Assembly (NCBI RefSeq): GCF_003324185.1
Contig: NZ_PXUP01000012.1
Location: 1-64,000 of the forward strand
DNA length: 64,000 nucleotides
Direction of reading: 5' to 3'
Source: Faecalibacterium prausnitzii
GTDB lineage: Bacteria; Bacillota; Clostridia; Oscillospirales; Ruminococcaceae
Position 1 is the first letter of the stretch, and each line of letters begins with the position of its first letter. Shown in pieces: positions 54,224 to 62,748 of this stretch. The notes beneath the pieces were generated by a model. It was not told the origin of the DNA. It searched no databases and saw nothing but the letters and a program-made list of their open reading frames with translations. Both the position numbers and the translations under genes were made by a program.

Positions 54224-55078
54224 TCAGTTTTCCTTTTTGCCCTGACGGTTCAGCACCCAGCCTGCGGCAAACAGCAGCACGCCGCTGCAGGCCAGCACCG
54301 GCACGGGCCAGTTCAACTGGCCGGTCTGGGGCAGAACAGGCTTATCGGGGTTGGAAGGGGAGACCGGGTTATCCGGATTTTCGGGGCTTACGGGGTTGTC
54401 CGGGTTGCCGGGACTTACCGGGTTATCAGGGCTGTCCGGGCTCACCGGCGTATCCGGGTTATCCGGCTGCTCCGGGAGATCGGGGGTGTCCGGTGTGTCG
54501 GGCGTATCGGGCACATCCGGGGTGTCGGGGGTGTCCGGCGTTTCCGGGATGGTAGCGCCTACCTTGGGGGTGGCGTCCACATCGTAGATCCAGTTGTCGC
54601 CATCGGGCATGGGGATGGACACAAGGAAGGGCTTGATGGCCTCGTAGCCGTGGGATGCCTCGGTCTGCACGACCAAGTACAGACCCTGCGGCAGCTTGGT
54701 AATGTTGGCATAGCCCTCTTCGTTCACGTCCTGCTGGGCGGCAATGGCGGGCACAGCGGGCAGATACTTTACCAGCTGGTCTGCCAGCGTGCTGTCGGAA
54801 AGATCGCCCAGCACGACACCGCAGCCCGTAAAATCGCCGGTATAGTCAAAGTACAGGTTGCCGTTGGTGCGCTTGACGGTGGCCACCTGATACAGGGTAA
54901 GCTCGCCGCCGCGCAGGGGCACATCGTTGTGGGTGTCGTACAGACGGACGTGGAGCGAGCCCAGACGCCCCAGTACAATGTTGGCACTGGTGGCAAACGC
55001 CGGCAGGGCGCAGCATACCACAAGGCACATAGCCAGCAGCACAGCCGCCAGACGATGACGCAAATCAATGCTTTTCAT
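54224..55078 (-). CDS. LPQTG-anchored minor pilin / surface protein with PDT-PDN repeats
   Basis: This 284-residue protein has a signal peptide (about residues 1-32), a pilin-type beta domain (about 33-170, with LPQGLYLVVQTEASHGYEAIKPF in part), a repeat region (about 175-255) made first of PDTPDTPD and then of PDNPVSP units, and the sorting signal LPQTG with a hydrophobic stretch and basic tail. Such proteins serve as cell-wall base pilins. The ATG at 55078 is used since it follows GAGAGG; an upstream GTG is too close. It overlaps the end of the sortase gene by 14 bases. Confidence 0.88.
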   Translation of the reverse strand: MKSIDLRHRLAAVLLAMCLVVCCALPAFATSANIVLGRLGSLHVRLYDTHNDVPLRGGELTLYQVATVKRTNGNLYFDYTGDFTGCGVVLGDLSDSTLADQLVKYLPAVPAIAAQQDVNEEGYANITKLPQGLYLVVQTEASHGYEAIKPFLVSIPMPDGDNWIYDVDATPKVGATIPETPDTPDTPDVPDTPDTPDTPDLPEQPDNPDTPVSPDSPDNPVSPGNPDNPVSPENPDNPVSPSNPDKPVLPQTGQLNWPVPVLACSGVLLFAAGWVLNRQGKKEN

Positions 55079-55910
55079 GTTCTTCACCTCTCGTTTTCTT
55101 GGGTTTGCGTGTGGAAATCAGCATACCGATCAGCAAGATCAGCAGCATGGGCAGCGCCATAATGGGCGCAACAATAATGGGTTCAATTTTAAGCGCTTCG
55201 GCGGTAACGCGGAGGTGCTTGTACTGATCCGGGGTCTCTACGCGGCGGCCGCGTACCAGCAGGCGGTGGGTGTTGATGCCGTAGGGGGTGCAGGTCATCA
55301 AGGTGACGTAGTCCTTGCCTTCGGCGATCTTCAGCTCATCGGTCTCGGTGGGCAGCACGATGGAAATTTTGTCCACCTCGTAGGTGAGCACCCGGTCCAG
55401 CACGGTGATGGTAAAGGTATCGCCCACTTCCAGCTGGTCGAGGTTGGTAAACAGCTTTGCGCTGGGCAGGCCGCGGTGCGCCGAGATGACCGCGTGGGTG
55501 CTCTCGCCGCCCACCGGCAGGCTGGTGCCCTCCAGGTGGCCTGCGGCGATCTGCAATACGCCGTCGCTGGTGCCGTGGTAGATGGGCAGCTCCACGCCGA
55601 TTTTGGAAATGGTGATGTAACCCATAATGCCGGTGCCGGTAATATCCAGCGTGTCGTTGTAGCCGGTAAGCTGATCCGGGCGGTAAAGGGCGTTTTTGTT
55701 GGCGGCCACCTGTGCGTTAAAGGCATCGGCGGCGTCAAAGTAGGCGCTGTAGTCGGCATCGGTCAGATTGTCCACATCCTCGGCATAGGTGGCCACAGCA
55801 CGGGACTGATGCAGTTGGTTGACGTAATCGCTGAGGGTAGGGTATAACATCACGGATAGACCCACGAAAAAGACGAGGATCAGGATGATGGTGCTTTTGT
55901 TCTTTTTCAT
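55065..55910 (-). CDS. srtC: Class C sortase (pilin polymerase)
   Basis: This 281-residue membrane enzyme links pilins by isopeptide bonds. It has an N-terminal helix (about 7-27), the catalytic histidine in VISAHRGLP near residue 145, the cysteine in TLMTCTPYG near residue 208 and the arginine in HRLLVRGRR. A second hydrophobic helix near residues 247-267 followed by a basic end is the mark of class C. It stands between the major pilin and the LPQTG protein. Confidence 0.94.
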   Translation of the reverse strand: MKKNKSTIILILVFFVGLSVMLYPTLSDYVNQLHQSRAVATYAEDVDNLTDADYSAYFDAADAFNAQVAANKNALYRPDQLTGYNDTLDITGTGIMGYITISKIGVELPIYHGTSDGVLQIAAGHLEGTSLPVGGESTHAVISAHRGLPSAKLFTNLDQLEVGDTFTITVLDRVLTYEVDKISIVLPTETDELKIAEGKDYVTLMTCTPYGINTHRLLVRGRRVETPDQYKHLRVTAEALKIEPIIVAPIMALPMLLILLIGMLISTRKPKKTRGEEHEKH

Positions 55911-55989
55911 GGGCTACTCCCTAATGTTATAAGGATAGGAGCGGGGGCCTTGCAGCCCCTTTGCTCCGGGTTCTTGGGGGAAATGGAGC

Positions 55990-57588
55990 TTACTTGTTCT
56001 CCATGCGCTTCTTGGTGACCAGCAGAACGATGGCCGCAACCATTAGGCCGCTGCCGACCACATAGAACAGGGTAGTGCCGATGCCGCCGGTGGAGGGCAG
56101 GGTAATGCCGCTGGCTTTGTTGATGATTTCATTATTCAGGTTGGATTCACCGGACAGATTAACATCGTGTTCGTCGTGCGTTGCAGAAATGACGATTTTA
56201 GTTTTGTCACAGGCACTGTAACCGGTGGGAGGGTTGGTCTCCTTCAGGTAGTAGGTGCCAGCGTCCAGACCTTTAACGTTGAACGTGCCATCAGCGGCGG
56301 ATTTCATTTCAACAGCGGTTTTACCGGTTGCGTTCTTGATGGGGTAGTAGAATTTGCCGTCTTGGTAGAGCTCCACTTCATTCGTACAATCCGCATCGCT
56401 GTACAGACGGAAGCCAGCGCCCTCCAGCTTGTTGTTCTCGTTAACTTCATCGCGGTACTTGGTGTTGTTCAGCTGGTAGGTGTACACACGGACTTCGCTT
56501 TCGGGAGTGAAGCCCCAGTATGCGCTGTTTCTGGGGTTATTAGAGTACTGGAGCTGTACTTTGTTTTTGTTATCGGTAGAGCCACTTGTAGAATTGACAG
56601 CGGCTTTGTCGTTCAGGTGTGCAGTATAGGTGACCGTAATAGTCGCGCCGTCATTCAAATTGAACCTTGGATCTTCAACACAGGTTTTGACATCAGGAAT
56701 GCCTACCACAAAATAGTTATGACTTTCAAGATCGGTAGTATCAATGGTATACTTCGAAGAATCGCCGGTGATATCATAGGGAATGCCATTGGATTCAATG
56801 ACTACACTATCGAGTCTGTCATAAGTAATGCCCTTGGACAAGGTATCATTGAACAAAACAGCGTACTCGTCATAGTAATCGTAAGCACGGCCATTGTCTC
56901 TGCTTGCGGGCAAGGTAGCAATCAGCTTGAACTGGAACTCTTCGTTGATCGCATGGTCAGCGCTGGAATAAAAACCTGCTTCGTTGGTGCCATCCTGATT
57001 GTCATAAACTTCCTTCTCAACATAGGGCTTTACAACCTTATGATTAACTAAAACGACATAGGGTGCTTGGGGAACATTCAGCAGGAAGAAGGAATTGTAG
57101 GCATGATAGAAATCGCGAAGGTTAAAGTAGGTAGTATCAACGATCAGATAATAACCTGACTCTGGAATGTTGATGCCACCGGTGTGATCTGTAATGACGG
57201 GTTTCGGGTTTGCATTGGCATCCGGGTAGAGATAGTGGCATACAACGCGCGCAAAAGCGATGCTGTAATCATCGGAATTATGCCATTTGCTGATAACCGC
57301 AAGAACGTCCTGAGCAGTGAAATTAGTTTTAAACTCACCGCCGATGGTAGGATCTGCCGTCAACTGCGCCAGAAACTCGTCAGGCTTAGTGATGCTGCTG
57401 CCCCACCCAACGTTGGAAAGCGTCTCATTGTCCTTACTAATAACACCCTTGAAGATCTGGAAAGCGCTGTAACCGTGGAGTTGGTTGAGGTCCTCCTCAG
57501 TGTCGTATGCAAACGCCGGGATCGCCATGGCGCACACCATGGCAACTGCCAGCAGAGCAGCCATGAGTTTCTTCATTGCTTTTTTCAT
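55990..57588 (-). CDS. Major pilin subunit (SpaA/SpaH type) with LPSTG sorting signal
   Basis: This 532-residue secreted protein would form the pilus shaft. It has a signal peptide ending at AIPAFA (residue about 27) and a candidate pilin-motif lysine in VNHKVVKP near residue 187. A Cna-B-like C-terminal domain carries the E-box YYLKETNPPTGY near residue 450, and the end has LPSTGG, a hydrophobic helix and KKRMENK. The gene is AT-richer than its neighbours in the middle part, which hints at a variable surface-exposed region. It is directly upstream of the sortase gene. Confidence 0.93.
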   Translation of the reverse strand: MKKAMKKLMAALLAVAMVCAMAIPAFAYDTEEDLNQLHGYSAFQIFKGVISKDNETLSNVGWGSSITKPDEFLAQLTADPTIGGEFKTNFTAQDVLAVISKWHNSDDYSIAFARVVCHYLYPDANANPKPVITDHTGGINIPESGYYLIVDTTYFNLRDFYHAYNSFFLLNVPQAPYVVLVNHKVVKPYVEKEVYDNQDGTNEAGFYSSADHAINEEFQFKLIATLPASRDNGRAYDYYDEYAVLFNDTLSKGITYDRLDSVVIESNGIPYDITGDSSKYTIDTTDLESHNYFVVGIPDVKTCVEDPRFNLNDGATITVTYTAHLNDKAAVNSTSGSTDNKNKVQLQYSNNPRNSAYWGFTPESEVRVYTYQLNNTKYRDEVNENNKLEGAGFRLYSDADCTNEVELYQDGKFYYPIKNATGKTAVEMKSAADGTFNVKGLDAGTYYLKETNPPTGYSACDKTKIVISATHDEHDVNLSGESNLNNEIINKASGITLPSTGGIGTTLFYVVGSGLMVAAIVLLVTKKRMENK

Positions 57589-57735
57589 GGAAAAGCCCCT
57601 TTCTTTTTTTTGCCCCTTGCCTCCCCCTGCATTTTGTGCAGGGGGGAGGGATGTGGTTTATGTTCGGATCATCGCGTAAACTTTGCGCTGGGCGGGCGGG
57701 GGCTCAGCCCCGGCACGCCAGCAGAAAAGTGCAGT

Positions 57736-60456
57736 TTAGTCATCTGCTCTCCCTTCGCGTCTGCGCTTGCGGTGGATAAAACTATATGCCAGCGCAGACA
57801 GCATCATTGTGCCGCCCACGGCTGTATACGGGAGTGTACCGGTGCCGCCGGTAGAGGGGAGCTCGTAGCCGGAGCTTTCGGTCTCCTTGTTGGTCGGCGT
57901 GAACTGACTGCCAGAAACCGAAATACGATCTTCAAAATTAGTCGTCCACCGCTTCCAATCATTTTCGTTGTTGGAACGGGCACGGTTCTGGAACTCAGAA
58001 TGACCGGCACCTGTAGCAGTGTTTTTGGTTATCTTAACGCGATAGGTCAGCCGATAACTTTCGCCGGAGTCTAATTTTTTCAGCTCTGTAATATGGAAGC
58101 TATCAGCGCTAAAAAAGTTGTTGTAGTCCGTTACCTCGCTCTCAGAGTTGCTTGCATCGATCTTTACCAGCTTAAAGCTGTCGGTTACATATTCGCCGGC
58201 GATCGTTTCAGTGTTTTGGAGCTCGTCCAGAATTTCAATGGGCTGAGACCAGCCATCCTTAGAGGAAACGATGACGGTGTAATCAATATAGGTAGTGCCG
58301 TCACTATCCACAACGGGGGTAGAGCCCTCCTTTTCAATAGCCAGATCGCGCGGCAGCGTGACGATAAGTTCCAGCCCGGTCGGGAAGCGGATCGTGTTGC
58401 TTTCCTGAGTGCCGACTGTGGAAGCTTCTGCCTCAAAATCAAAGTGTCCGGTAAAAAGCTTTGAAGTATCAAACTCTTCATTGAAAGTAAGTTGGACAAC
58501 ACCATTCGTATCAACTACACCGGTACCAACTTCCTGATTGGTGCTTTGGTCGACCAATGGGAACGACTTGTTTTCAGATAGCTCAATCCCAGCGGGAAGC
58601 TGATAGGTCAGGTTTTTTGTGGTAAGATCCTTAAGGGCATTTTCAGGGATATTAAAGGTGTAGTTCAGACTAAGCTTATCGCCATCCTTCAACTCGATCT
58701 GATCTTCCGGGTTAAGAACTTTTGTACCTTGCTTTACGGTGATATCGGTAATGCCGCCCTTATTCGTGCCCTCAGACGTTTCTACAAAGTAATCAAGATA
58801 GGTTCCCCCTGCCGCCGGTGCAGGCACACGGTTCGGGCGGCTGGGGGAGATGGTAGGCAGCTGGCTGGCGTACTGGGCGGCGGCAACATCCACCACGGCC
58901 AGAACCTCAGCATCGAAAAGCGTGACCTCAGCCACCTTGCCGTCCACGTCGCCGGAAATAACGGTCAGCGTGCCGGCGTCGCTGTCCACACTGCTCACGA
59001 TGCCCACGGTCTCCACCGGTTCAGCATCGGTCACGGTGGTGGTCTGCGGCTCGGCAGCGGGGGACACCACGCTGGGGATAAGGGTGTCCGCGCCGGATGC
59101 AGAGGTGCCGGTGCTGTCCGCCGGCTTTGCGGCGGGCTGCTCCGGGTTGGCGGTGTCGGGGAGATCAGGGGTGATCACGCTGTCGGCAGCGGGGGCATCC
59201 TCAGCGGCGGGGGCTGCATCCAACGAAGCGGCGCCGGATTCCTCAAGCTCTGCGCCGTTCTCACCCTCAGCGTCCATGCTGAACTGGTCGTCCAGATCGT
59301 CCGCTGCACCATCGGCGCTGCTGTCCACAGCCACGGTGCGGGTGACATACTTATTATAAATAACGATGTCGCCCACATTGGCGGCGCTGCCGTCCTCGCC
59401 GTCCAGCAGCCAGTCCATGTCGCTCATGGAGCTGCGCAGGGAAAGCACGCTGGCCTCCTGCGGGATGGCGCTCTGGGGGATACCGGCGTACTTCAGGCAG
59501 TAGGAGAGGAACATCACGTCCCACTCGCCGTAGGGGTTGCCGTAAGACTGGCCGTAGCGGGAGTAGTAGTGCAGGGTCACGCCGTCTGCGGGGTCGATCT
59601 CAAAGTTTTTCTCGCTCTACTCGTAGCCCAGCTGGGTCTTTGCCACGCTGAGCAGGTCCTCGTCCCAGTTGCCGGTCATCACGGCCTCGGCGTTGGCGGC
59701 CTGCCACTCCTCGGGGGTCTCAACGTCGGCGGAGGTGTCGCTCAGGCAGGCTACGGTGTGGTGATGCTCCGGCAGGGGGCAGGTAAGCACTTCCTCGTAG
59801 CAGGCGTCAGTGTGGTGGTGGTAGATGGGCTCCACGGTGTCCACCGTCGGCTCCAGTGCCACAGGCTCGGCCACAGCCATAGCCGCCAGCTCGGCGCTCT
59901 GGGTGGGCTCCACCACCTGCTCCACAAGCTCGCCCTCTTCCAGTCCACAGGTCAGCTCGTACTCGGTGGTATAGCAGTTTTCATCGTGGGTATGCTCAAA
60001 TTTGTCGCAGATCAGGCTGCCATCCTCAGGGTCGAAGCAGTCGTCACCGTGGACGTGCTCTTCTTCCATGCAGGTCAGGGTCTGCACCTCGGTGTAGCAG
60101 TCCTCGGTGTGCTCGTGGGGCACAAACTCGATCTGCGGCTCCAGTGCCAGCGGCGCGGGCTCAGCCTCAACGGTGGGCTGGCTGGTGGCAGCAGCGGCGG
60201 CCAGCTCGTCCGCATTTTCAAGCTCGCCTTCCTCGTAACCGCAGGTGAGCACCTTGGTGTAGCAATCCGCGGTGTGGGTGTGCTCCTCCTCGCCGCACTG
60301 GTACTGCGCGGTCATCGAGATGCCCACGCCATGCAGCTGCCAGTTGACGAACAGGGTGGTGATCATGGCAAGTGCCAGCACAAATGCGGTGTAGCGCCGC
60401 AGGGTGTGCCGGTTCTCACGGAACCGCTCCATGTACGTTTTAAGAATGTCGTTCAT
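57736..60456 (-). pseudogene. Large LPXTG surface adhesin split by an in-frame TAG codon
   Basis: Read without the stop, this is one frame of 906 codons. Residues 1-60 hold a long signal/anchor helix. Residues about 53-255 hold six H-x-H-T/G-x-x-C motifs (for example HTHTADCY, HEHTEDCY, HHHTDACY). Next comes a CHAP-like domain where the usual catalytic Cys is Asp (GEWDVMFLSYC), then an acidic linker, a beta-rich domain, and the sorting end LPSTGG with helix and KRRR. Codon 280 (59619-59617) is TAG; the frame continues unbroken on both sides. The N-terminal piece would be 279 residues without an anchor, and the rest lacks a signal peptide. It could be a nonsense mutation, read-through or a sequencing error. 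Confidence 0.82.
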
Positions 60457-60478: not shown

Positions 60479-61069
60479 TCAATGGATCAACGAGAAGCTG
60501 GACAAGGGCCATACCCTTAGAAAAACCCTGCCCACGATCTGGCTTTTTTCAACGCAGCCTATCACGCTGCTGCGGCTGTCGATGGAGGTGGCACGGTGGT
60601 CGCCCAGCACGAAGTAGCGGTTTTCCGGCACCTGATAGGGGAACCGGATGTCGCATTCGCCCACGGTCAGCGCGTCCACATAGGGTTCGTCCAGCGCCAC
60701 GCCGTTTACCGAGACTACGCCATTCACGTCCATATCGATCACATCACCGGGCTGCCCGATGATGCGTTTGAGCAGCAGCTTGTTCTGCCAGTAAAACCCG
60801 CACAGCTCGCCGTTTTCAATGTGGTTGGATTTTACCAGCAGGATAATGTCTTTATCATTTAATGTAGGGTACATGCTGTCGCCGGAGACCTGAAGCACCG
60901 GCAGAAACAGCGTAGCCAGCAGCACAGCTACTGCGGCTACCACCACCAGAATATAGATCGTACTGCGCAGCACCCGCTGGTAGCGGTTCTGGTACGCAAG
61001 ACGCTCACGTTCTGCGGCCACTTCCTCGGTGGAAGGGATGGAAGCAAACCGGATATCGCGTTTTTTCAT
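60479..61069 (-). CDS. lepB: Signal peptidase I of the pilus locus
   Basis: This 196-residue membrane protease has one helix (about 38-60), the catalytic serine in SGDSMYPT near residue 65, the lysine in LLLKRIIGQPGD near residue 101 and VLGDHRATSIDSR near residue 152. Pilus loci in Gram-positive bacteria often carry their own signal peptidase that acts on pilins. Its start overlaps the preceding coiled-coil gene by four bases, and the adhesin gene follows 22 bases later. Confidence 0.94.
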   Translation of the reverse strand: MKKRDIRFASIPSTEEVAAERERLAYQNRYQRVLRSTIYILVVVAAVAVLLATLFLPVLQVSGDSMYPTLNDKDIILLVKSNHIENGELCGFYWQNKLLLKRIIGQPGDVIDMDVNGVVSVNGVALDEPYVDALTVGECDIRFPYQVPENRYFVLGDHRATSIDSRSSVIGCVEKSQIVGRVFLRVWPLSSFSLIH

Positions 61070-61605
61070 GTTTCCTCCGAAGGCAGACCGTCGGTGCTGC
61101 GGTACTGGTCCAGCAGCTCATTGGCCTTGTGGTCAAATGCCTGCCAGCGCTGCTGCACCTCCTGCTCGGCGCGCTCTACCATGGCCTTGCAGTCGGCCTC
61201 GGTCTGGGTGCGTTTTTGCGCGGCGGCGACGGTCATGGCGTCGCATTCCTGCTGCGCCTGCGCTTTCAGGCTGTCGGCGTCTGCCTGTGCCTGCTCCAGA
61301 ATGCGCTTGGCCTCGCTGCGCGCCTGCGAAAGGGTATTGGCGGCGGTGGCGTTGGTGTCCGCAAGACTGGCCTGCACTGAGTGCAGATAGTCATCGGCGG
61401 CGGCCTGCGCGGCGGCGAACACGTTGTTCAGCTCCAGCGCGGCCTGCGCGATGGAACCGGCGCTTTCCAGCCGGAGCTGCCGGTCCTGCAGCTGCGCGGT
61501 AAGCGCGGCGTTCTGCGCCTTGAGCTGGTCCTCGCTCTGCTTCAGCGCATAGATGATCTCTATCAGTTCAGCGCGGTGCATCCGCCGCAGTTCACGATCT
61601 GCCAT
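61066..61605 (-). CDS. Coiled-coil protein, first gene of the pilus operon
   Basis: This 179-residue protein is mostly a long alpha-helical coiled coil (about residues 22-165, rich in Ala, Gln, Glu, Lys). It has no signal peptide and no membrane helix. The general look is like DivIVA-type or cytoskeletal scaffold proteins, but no clear motif supports a family. It overlaps lepB by ATGA, so it is cotranslated with the pilus genes and may place the assembly machine at a site in the cell; that is inference. Confidence 0.7.
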   Translation of the reverse strand: MADRELRRMHRAELIEIIYALKQSEDQLKAQNAALTAQLQDRQLRLESAGSIAQAALELNNVFAAAQAAADDYLHSVQASLADTNATAANTLSQARSEAKRILEQAQADADSLKAQAQQECDAMTVAAAQKRTQTEADCKAMVERAEQEVQQRWQAFDHKANELLDQYRSTDGLPSEET

Positions 61606-61945: not shown

Positions 61946-61985
61946 AAAACGGGAGCCGCACTTTTCGAAAAAAGCGCGGCTCCCG
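61946..61985 (-). terminator. Terminator after the MAM-leader peptide gene
   Basis: On the minus strand GGGAGCCGC and GCGGCTCCC (with CTTTT/AAAAG inside) are followed by GTTTTT, about 25 bases after the stop codon. Confidence 0.85.
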
Positions 61986-62009: not shown

Positions 62010-62243
62010 TTACTTGCCGAAGCTGCCCAGCAGGCTGTTCAGCGATACAAAGGACTGGTAGATGACGTTAACGTTGTTGATGATGGAGCTTGCACCGGAG
62101 AAGATGCGGGCAATGTAGTTGAACACCTTGCCGATGTCCAGGAAGGACTGATAAGCGTTGCTGGCGCCGCCGTCCAGATAGGTCATCTCCTCGGCTTCGA
62201 TAGCGGAATAGCTGGCGGGCATTTTCATGGTAGAAGTAGTCAT
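62010..62243 (-). CDS. Small secreted peptide with MAM-type double-glycine leader
   Basis: This 77-residue precursor has a leader ending in EMTYLDGG at residues 19-26, a form of the double-glycine site cut by C39-peptidase ABC exporters. The start KMPASYSAI...EMTY..GG resembles, from memory, that of the F. prausnitzii anti-inflammatory protein MAM (MMPANYSVI...EMTYVNGG). The remaining 51 residues (27-77) are rich in Ser, Ile, Asn and aromatics and could form an amphipathic or membrane-active helix; they do not resemble the MAM core. The ATG at 62243 has AAGGG upstream. It follows the InlB-repeat gene by 46 bases and ends before a terminator. No exporter or immunity gene is adjacent. Confidence 0.75.
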   Translation of the reverse strand: MTTSTMKMPASYSAIEAEEMTYLDGGASNAYQSFLDIGKVFNYIARIFSGASSIINNVNVIYQSFVSLNSLLGSFGK

Positions 62244-62289
62244 GGTAAGATCCCTTTCTTCAATGGTGTCATTGTGTTTACAGCAGTGT

Positions 62290-62748
62290 TCAGAACATGG
62301 TGGCGACCAGCAGGGTAGTAAGCAGGGCACCGGCCACAAGTGCAGGCCCTACATACTTTTGCCACTGGGTGGCGGCAGGCTGGGTGGTGGGCTGCGGCAC
62401 GGTAGAAGTACCGACCTTGGCAGTCCAGTGGGCGTAGATGGTGGCGTCGGAGGTGAACACGGTGGAGGTGGTCACCTTGCTGCCGCCCACCGGCTCAGTG
62501 TACCAGCCGTCAAAGGTGTAGCCCGTCATGGTAGGCTGCTCGGGCGTGCTCTCCAGTTTGCCGGACAGGTTCGTGTAGGTTACCACGGTGGAGCAGATGC
62601 CGCCCTGGGCATCCATACCAATGGCGTACACGTTCTCTTCCTTTTTGCTCCCTGAAGTTTTGTCGGCGGCAAATGCAGCCGGCAGTGCGCAGCACAGCAG
62701 CGTGAACAGGCAAAGCCCGACCACCAGCGTTTTCAGGAATTTTTTCAT
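62290..62748 (-). CDS. Exported protein with an InlB-type (Listeria-Bacteroides) repeat
   Basis: This 152-residue protein has a signal peptide (about residues 1-28, ending AAFA), one InlB B-repeat-like unit (about 62-110, GYTFDGWYTEPVGGSK and IYAHWTA), a Thr/Pro/Gln linker and a C-terminal hydrophobic helix (about 130-150). There is no LPXTG, so it is anchored by the helix. Its gene precedes the MAM-leader peptide and probably shares its transcript. A possible role is surface display; there is no direct evidence. Confidence 0.82.
   Translation of the reverse strand: MKKFLKTLVVGLCLFTLLCCALPAAFAADKTSGSKKEENVYAIGMDAQGGICSTVVTYTNLSGKLESTPEQPTMTGYTFDGWYTEPVGGSKVTTSTVFTSDATIYAHWTAKVGTSTVPQPTTQPAATQWQKYVGPALVAGALLTTLLVATMF

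Follow-up and report, generated by a model that had tools for sequence, protein, structure and literature searches.

Sequence comparison places the MAM-type double-glycine leader ahead of several apparently unrelated core peptides in Faecalibacterium, one of them paired with a small InlB-repeat protein

At the level of sequence, the Faecalibacterium protein MAM appears to be one cargo among several that bear a common export address, and a short peptide precursor of Faecalibacterium prausnitzii, here designated family c3, appears to form a surface pair with the product of an adjoining gene. MAM is presented in PMC12184118 as a key anti-inflammatory effector of F. duncaniae and as a protein without relevant homology to others. 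The c3 precursor lies in a window of 64,000 nucleotides (the whole stretch of DNA analysed) from a genome that is 99.85% complete in 76 contigs (G000). The explanation that fits best, and which is considered fairly probable, is that a single exporter serves many cargoes, of which MAM is the best known, and that the c3 core would be an amphipathic helix acting together with a partner protein at the cell envelope.

The precursor gene (62010..62243, minus strand) encodes 77 residues, divided into the leader MTTSTMKMPASYSAIEAEEMTYLDGG and the core ASNAYQSFLDIGKVFNYIARIFSGASSIINNVNVIYQSFVSLNSLLGSFGK; minus-strand translation agrees with the original prediction of a 26-residue leader ending in GG and a 51-residue remainder. 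The segment KMPASYSAI, with which the precursor had been said to open, is present, but the true start is MTTSTM, ahead of it. Within the leader (62166..62243, minus strand), P(-18), A(-17) and Y(-15) come first and E(-8) further on; I(-12), M(-7) and L(-4), with the terminal GG, are the hydrophobic residues and cut site expected of GG leaders of PCAT substrates, and E(-8), M(-7) and L(-4) are kept in 13/13 c3 orthologues. The core, the predicted mature peptide, occupies 62013..62165 on the same strand. A Shine–Dalgarno-like AGAAAGGG, read from the sequence at 62252..62259 (minus strand), stands 8 bases ahead of the ATG; together with full-length relatives in 13/31 genomes of the genus and dN/dS values of 0.03–0.24, it sets the 77-residue frame apart from a chance open reading frame. 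These dN/dS values are those of the closest c3 relatives, with distant pairs reaching 1.15 (the G012 gene was taken a few residues short), and close c3 pairs are under purifying selection. A promoter scan at the locus found one candidate where 1.4 were expected. No family in Pfam or NCBIfam covers the precursor, the sole match (PF17896, E 0.15) being judged irrelevant, and a search of the PDB with the c3 family profile gave 22 matches at E ≤ 1, the best at 0.14.

Resemblance of this leader to the MAM N-terminus, as originally proposed, withstands a comparison designed to avoid circularity, in which a profile was built from MAM leaders only (34/35 members of the MAM cluster, 16 of them distinct, with one member left out). 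Among the 1310 frames of at least 25 residues in the window, this profile recovered the 77-residue frame at E 8.4e-7, the runner-up standing at 3.3, and the reversed profile reached no better than 1.4 on the same frames, which places the resemblance beyond chance. By eye, 12/20 leader positions are identical to the MAM N-terminus as printed in PMC12184118. The published MAM motif, MMMPANx(8,11)VxGG, matches 25/35 members of the MAM cluster, 0/13 members of the c3 family (this leader included) and 0/123 of all precursors other than MAM, so that a motif-based search would miss the non-MAM precursors.

Profile searches place the leader, among the matches listed, in 27/31 Faecalibacterium genomes, and in two further ones at weak values only (G018, E 0.27; G026, E 0.45), and the expectation that genes other than that of MAM would carry it is borne out. 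The 140 leader matches at E ≤ 0.005 among those listed were taken, those above this value being left out, and 158 precursors were extracted from the leader loci together with a few more (155 from the genus, three from two other genera). In a family sample of 197 genomes, convincing leaders outside the genus occur only in G209 and G086, four partial matches (E 0.013–0.043) remaining uncounted; the cores behind these MAM-type leaders (L224 on G209 C65; L225 on G086 C331) cluster with no Faecalibacterium core. Proline at -18 is found in 153/158 precursors. The search profile itself contains P(-18), and a fairer test is therefore given by the precursors that were found by routes independent of the leader profile (three of a family c13 and one second copy in G017), all four of which have it.

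Behind this leader the cores diverge. All-against-all comparison of the 158 cores gave 12 clusters, comprising a tandem family of 58 members, MAM (35), a 150-aa family (26), c3 (13), a follower family (13) and smaller groups; the tandem family occurs in 26 genomes, with two or three members per genome in 25, and the follower family stands right after the 150-aa family in 13/13 cases. Across eight clusters compared by sampled pairs, leaders are on average 33–60% identical over the last 18 residues, a similarity partly built in by the search, and core identity, which is free of that bias, differs by no more than 0.05 from the value for shuffled cores. For c3 and MAM (120 sampled pairs) the leaders share 0.54 identity and the cores 0.25, the same as shuffled cores, and hhalign gives the two cores a probability of 0.3%, in keeping with the original view of the 51-residue core as unlike that of MAM; its length is about half that of the MAM core. 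The idea that c3 is a short or degenerate MAM paralogue, suggested by its MAM-type leader, is thus confronted with a core that gives no signal by pairwise identity or profile comparison, and 12/13 c3 genomes also hold a precursor of the MAM cluster; it was rejected as extremely improbable. The c3 core profile likewise shows no relation to the other clusters tested, the best value (8%, to the 150-aa family, c2) not being counted.

A core fold common to all cargoes was considered and rejected, the sole hint being that between MAM (c1) and the 150-aa family (hhalign 47%, E 1.9e-4), which may be distantly related. The MAM-only leader profile recovers 47/58 members of the tandem family, 15/26 of the 150-aa family and 12/13 of c3, whereas the follower family and cluster 5, whose leaders are more diverged, escape it. 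Sequence comparison thus counts three apparently unrelated core families recovered by the MAM-only profile, with MAM and the 150-aa family taken as one, and at least six when the diverged leaders and c13 are included. Pfam matches of other cores (E 0.011–0.094) were dismissed.

The genome of the window illustrates this range, with five exact EMTYxxGG leaders, namely that of c3, those of MAM and of a 156-aa precursor, both on contig C35, and those of a tandem pair on C76, and with a sixth precursor, recognised by eye and with a diverged leader, directly after the 156-aa one. A DNA pattern search of the same genome allowing up to two mismatches gave 12 matches, against 16 for the backwards pattern, and is regarded as noise; only the five exact matches were used, and the backwards-pattern control does not discriminate exact matches. 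On C35 (L011:7219-8083), a precursor of the 150-aa family is succeeded by a follower whose leader lacks EMTY and keeps P(S)SYAxLxxEEQ..GG, and the tandem GG precursors on C76 (L009:8333-9172), 117 and 109 aa long, are members of the largest leader family. Elsewhere, a MAM copy in G021 (C16:11682-12023, L191) has an intact leader start and no GG, its EMTYV running straight into the core.

A C39-type exporter had been proposed to exist in the genome, and one locus was found, on contig C44 (C44:125306), encoding a 778-aa PCAT that scores 578 bits against the TIGR01193 cut-off of 523.85, has PCAT1 as its best PDB match, and has C, H, D and Q in place. It is the sole C39 locus in G000, and pilus and surface genes adjoin the peptide, as anticipated by the description of c3 as sitting in a surface-protein neighbourhood without its own exporter. 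The PCAT is succeeded by a 151-aa protein and by a putative HlyD-type adaptor and a putative Ig-domain protein, both assigned by eye and by analogy with the genes that PMC8836110 describes next to the PCAT. Across the genus, a C39 exporter is found in 26/27 leader-bearing genomes and 0/4 others (Fisher p 1.6e-4, kinship ignored); the exception, G025, has leaders and no C39 match in a genome that is 77% complete, and one of the four others, G020, has a weak C39 match (32.6 bits, over the family cut-off) in a 293-aa frame, which was not counted. With the leader and core surveys, this distribution supports, at sequence level, the first reading of a family sharing one leader and exporter and differing in the active part.

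Two observations concern the exporters themselves. In the single-contig genome G028 (C1:1947568, L059) a break near residue 191 divides the reading frame of the exporter, by sequencing error or real loss. The exporter at L008:8301-10637 is about 30 residues longer than PCAT1 between the C39 histidine and aspartate, with many of the residues charged; the histidine–aspartate distance is 44–47 in 25/26 exporter relatives, the aspartate of L064 being matched uncleanly by the pattern used.

The c3 core is modelled as an amphipathic helix. In 18-residue windows its hydrophobic moment is 0.28–0.62 at the helical angle and 0.06–0.25 at the beta angle, and AlphaFold2, supplied with eight sequences, predicts with moderate confidence one helix spanning residues 3–50 (pLDDT 74.7, pTM 0.36). 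The core encoded in the window has a net charge of +2 and a predicted pI of 9.4; among five c3 cores computed, four carry +2 and one (G013) carries -2.

As a family of its own, c3 numbers 14 copies in 13/31 Faecalibacterium genomes, and the named genomes with c3 relatives are Faecalibacterium in 7/7 cases. In a midpoint-rooted tree of 25 exporters (G028, with its split frame, left out), c3 is present in two clades, one large clade and G002 being without it, and the c3 genome counts therefore reflect few independent gains or losses. The fourteenth copy belongs to a second partner-and-peptide pair in one genome (G017 C1:1128384-1129137, L226), with strongly diverged leader and core; the peptide has 37% identity and a leader ending in PEEQAAVAGG, with E, Q and V at -8, -7 and -4, of which Q(-7) is not hydrophobic. 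A phage origin of c3 was set aside, no relative being found in viral contigs; the one such record with a full-length c3 match, MT835974.1 ('Bacteriophage sp.', L293), also bears the partner along with the signal peptidase, the pilin and the sortase, and looks like a fragment of a Faecalibacterium chromosome.

Beyond the original prediction, a conserved partner gene lies directly upstream of the peptide gene (62290..62748, minus strand), ending 46 bases before it and encoding 152 aa with one InlB/Listeria–Bacteroides repeat (Pfam PF09479, 1.5e-14). Inspection by eye also gave a signal peptide and, at the C-terminus, a membrane helix; the AlphaFold model of the protein, of low confidence (pLDDT 58.6) and used for secondary structure only, has helices at 2–28 and 133–151. 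The partner stands directly ahead of 12/14 c3 copies, preceding 11/13 orthologous peptides at a gap of 44–62 bases and the second G017 peptide, which has its own partner, at a gap of 28; the G003 and G013 copies have no adjoining partner, and the partner is therefore not strictly needed.

The association is equally close from the side of the partner. In the fetched leader loci, near-full-length partner matches lie only beside these 12 c3 copies. A search of the genus found 15 near-full-length partners in 12 genomes (nine of 24 matches being left out as repeats in larger frames or, in one G026 frame, for two internal stops), and 15/15 are followed by a GG peptide, three of them with a core unrelated to c3. 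These three partners, which adjoined no leader gene known beforehand, have a 4-base open-frame overlap with a GG peptide of 96–98 aa (family c13), whose strong matches occur only behind them, in 3/31 genomes; four others, weak at E 5e-5 to 6e-4, were omitted from this count. In the family sample of 197 genomes, the repeats found outside the genus sit mostly in large frames and not in a compact protein like the partner, shorter frames being those of G172 (236 aa) and G071 (104 aa). Co-occurrence of partner and peptide gives a Fisher value of 9e-8, which overstates the evidence, the genomes standing for few independent events.

The main rival explanation, judged unlikely, gives this pairing another meaning: the core would be a class II-type bacteriocin that kills competitors, and the InlB-repeat membrane protein an immunity protein or receptor decoy. 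A GG leader with a PCAT is the usual bacteriocin route according to PMC8836110 and PMC7018657, a predicted 51-residue amphipathic helix of net charge +2 would suit such a role, and the pairing of a membrane protein with this peptide, and also with an unrelated core, is compatible with it. Other cargoes faintly match bacteriocin models, a tandem-family precursor that of lichenicidin A2 (E 0.0018; 18.6 bits against a cut-off of 32.95) and MAM two of lactococcin G (E 0.042 and 0.067), all below curated cut-offs. For the c3 peptide itself, however, neither Pfam nor NCBIfam yields a bacteriocin model at E ≤ 1; its core is conserved between close species, the charge of the G013 relative is negative, and the two copies without an adjoining partner would lack the proposed immunity protein beside them. 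Immunity proteins are not known to carry an exported beta repeat, which was also counted against this explanation.

Downstream, the peptide gene is separated from the pilus genes by an intrinsic-terminator-like hairpin (61950..61985, minus strand; 16 pairs and a T tail), a feature that had gone unnoticed. Past this hairpin, all on the minus strand, lie a 179-aa protein, coiled-coil-like by eye (61066..61605), the first gene of the pilus/surface locus; its signal peptidase I, assigned from Pfam/NCBIfam and neighbourhood comparison (60479..61069); and surface proteins (279 aa; LPXTG, 614 aa), a SpaA/RrgB-type pilin (532 aa) and a class C sortase (55065..60456). A role for c3 as an accessory of this locus, for example in pilus capping, anchoring or assembly, is judged quite unlikely. 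The signal peptidase adjoins the peptide in 10/13 peptide genomes, and at E ≤ 1e-80 it occurs in 10/31 genomes, in all ten alongside partner and peptide; some link to the pilus is favoured because it was never found at that threshold without the peptide. Dependence on the pilus locus is disfavoured because the peptides of G014, G003 and G013 and the second G017 copy have no such signal peptidase beside them. Two further observations count against an accessory role: in G020 a 46% homologue of this enzyme goes without any peptide, and a hairpin lies between the units within 30 nt of the stop codon in 8/13 copies, that of the window included, whereas one copy has it at 121 nt and four gave none.

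The wider neighbourhood bears on the proposal that c3 is a pheromone, released as a signal and detected by a sensor. Some PCATs export pheromones (PMC7018657), and a GntR-type regulator, past a tRNA gene in the window, adjoins the locus in 3/13 genomes. The most recurrent neighbour, however, is the InlB-repeat protein. With 51 residues also being long for a pheromone, this explanation is highly improbable.

In the favoured explanation, partner and peptide would be co-transcribed, the transcript ending at the hairpin, as their spacing, the Shine–Dalgarno sequence and the hairpin suggest. The sole PCAT found in the genome, encoded elsewhere, would then recognise the leader through the GG and the hydrophobic positions -15, -12, -7 and -4, with P(-18)A(-17) serving as an N-terminal tag, cut after the GG, and export the 51-residue core. 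The partner, to judge from its sequence, would be exported by Sec and held by its C-terminal membrane helix with the InlB repeat outside. Least certain is the final step, in which the helical peptide and the partner would act at the cell envelope as a surface-held component or as a ligand, like MAM; a surface-held role seems most likely, over that of a freely diffusing toxin, because the partner looks membrane-anchored. A bolder generalisation, quite possible though somewhat less likely than not, is that the genus uses an address code, P(-18)A(-17)...E(-8)M(-7)xY..GG, together with exchangeable two-gene surface pairs of InlB protein and GG peptide, MAM then being merely the most abundant of several unrelated helical cargoes loaded onto the envelope by a single exporter. 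Neither other cores behind the MAM leader nor an InlB-partner/GG-peptide pair was found described in the literature searched, which covered the titles and abstract openings of the best matches among openly available papers.

Each element has partial counterparts in known systems. MAM (PMC12184118, PMC8836110) comes from the same genus, has PA, E(-8), M(-7), Y(-5) and GG in matching leader places, and is proposed to be exported via the same PCAT; c3 differs in having a core with no detectable relation to that of MAM, in a leader to which the published MAM motif does not fit, and in its InlB-repeat partner, none having been found in the fetched MAM loci. The pneumococcal exporters ComAB/BlpAB and RtgAB (PMC7018657) likewise act on peptides with a GG site and hydrophobic residues at -15, -12, -7 and -4, and one pneumococcal exporter takes several cargoes; RtgAB relies on an N-terminal signal motif in the region of -18, where RtgG has a proline. 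In Faecalibacterium, by contrast, the cargo genes are scattered in the genome, most cargoes are larger, P(-18)A(-17) is genus-wide, and export is predicted. With InlB B-repeat surface proteins (PF09479, TIGR02543) the partner shares one such repeat, but it is small, with a single repeat, a bare C-terminal membrane helix and no LPXTG by eye, and it differs from them also in being followed by a GG peptide in all 15 copies.

If the MAM leader is a common address, the exporter would serve a set of surface proteins, and phenotypes of MAM or of its exporter would need to be re-read. Each strain would then hold more candidate effectors, five besides MAM in G000 and seven besides MAM in G003. The first 42 residues of the G003 MAM are those printed for F. 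duncaniae in PMC12184118, and the eight G003 precursors can therefore be searched for in existing proteomes; the partner pairs, for their part, offer concrete protein pairs for binding tests.
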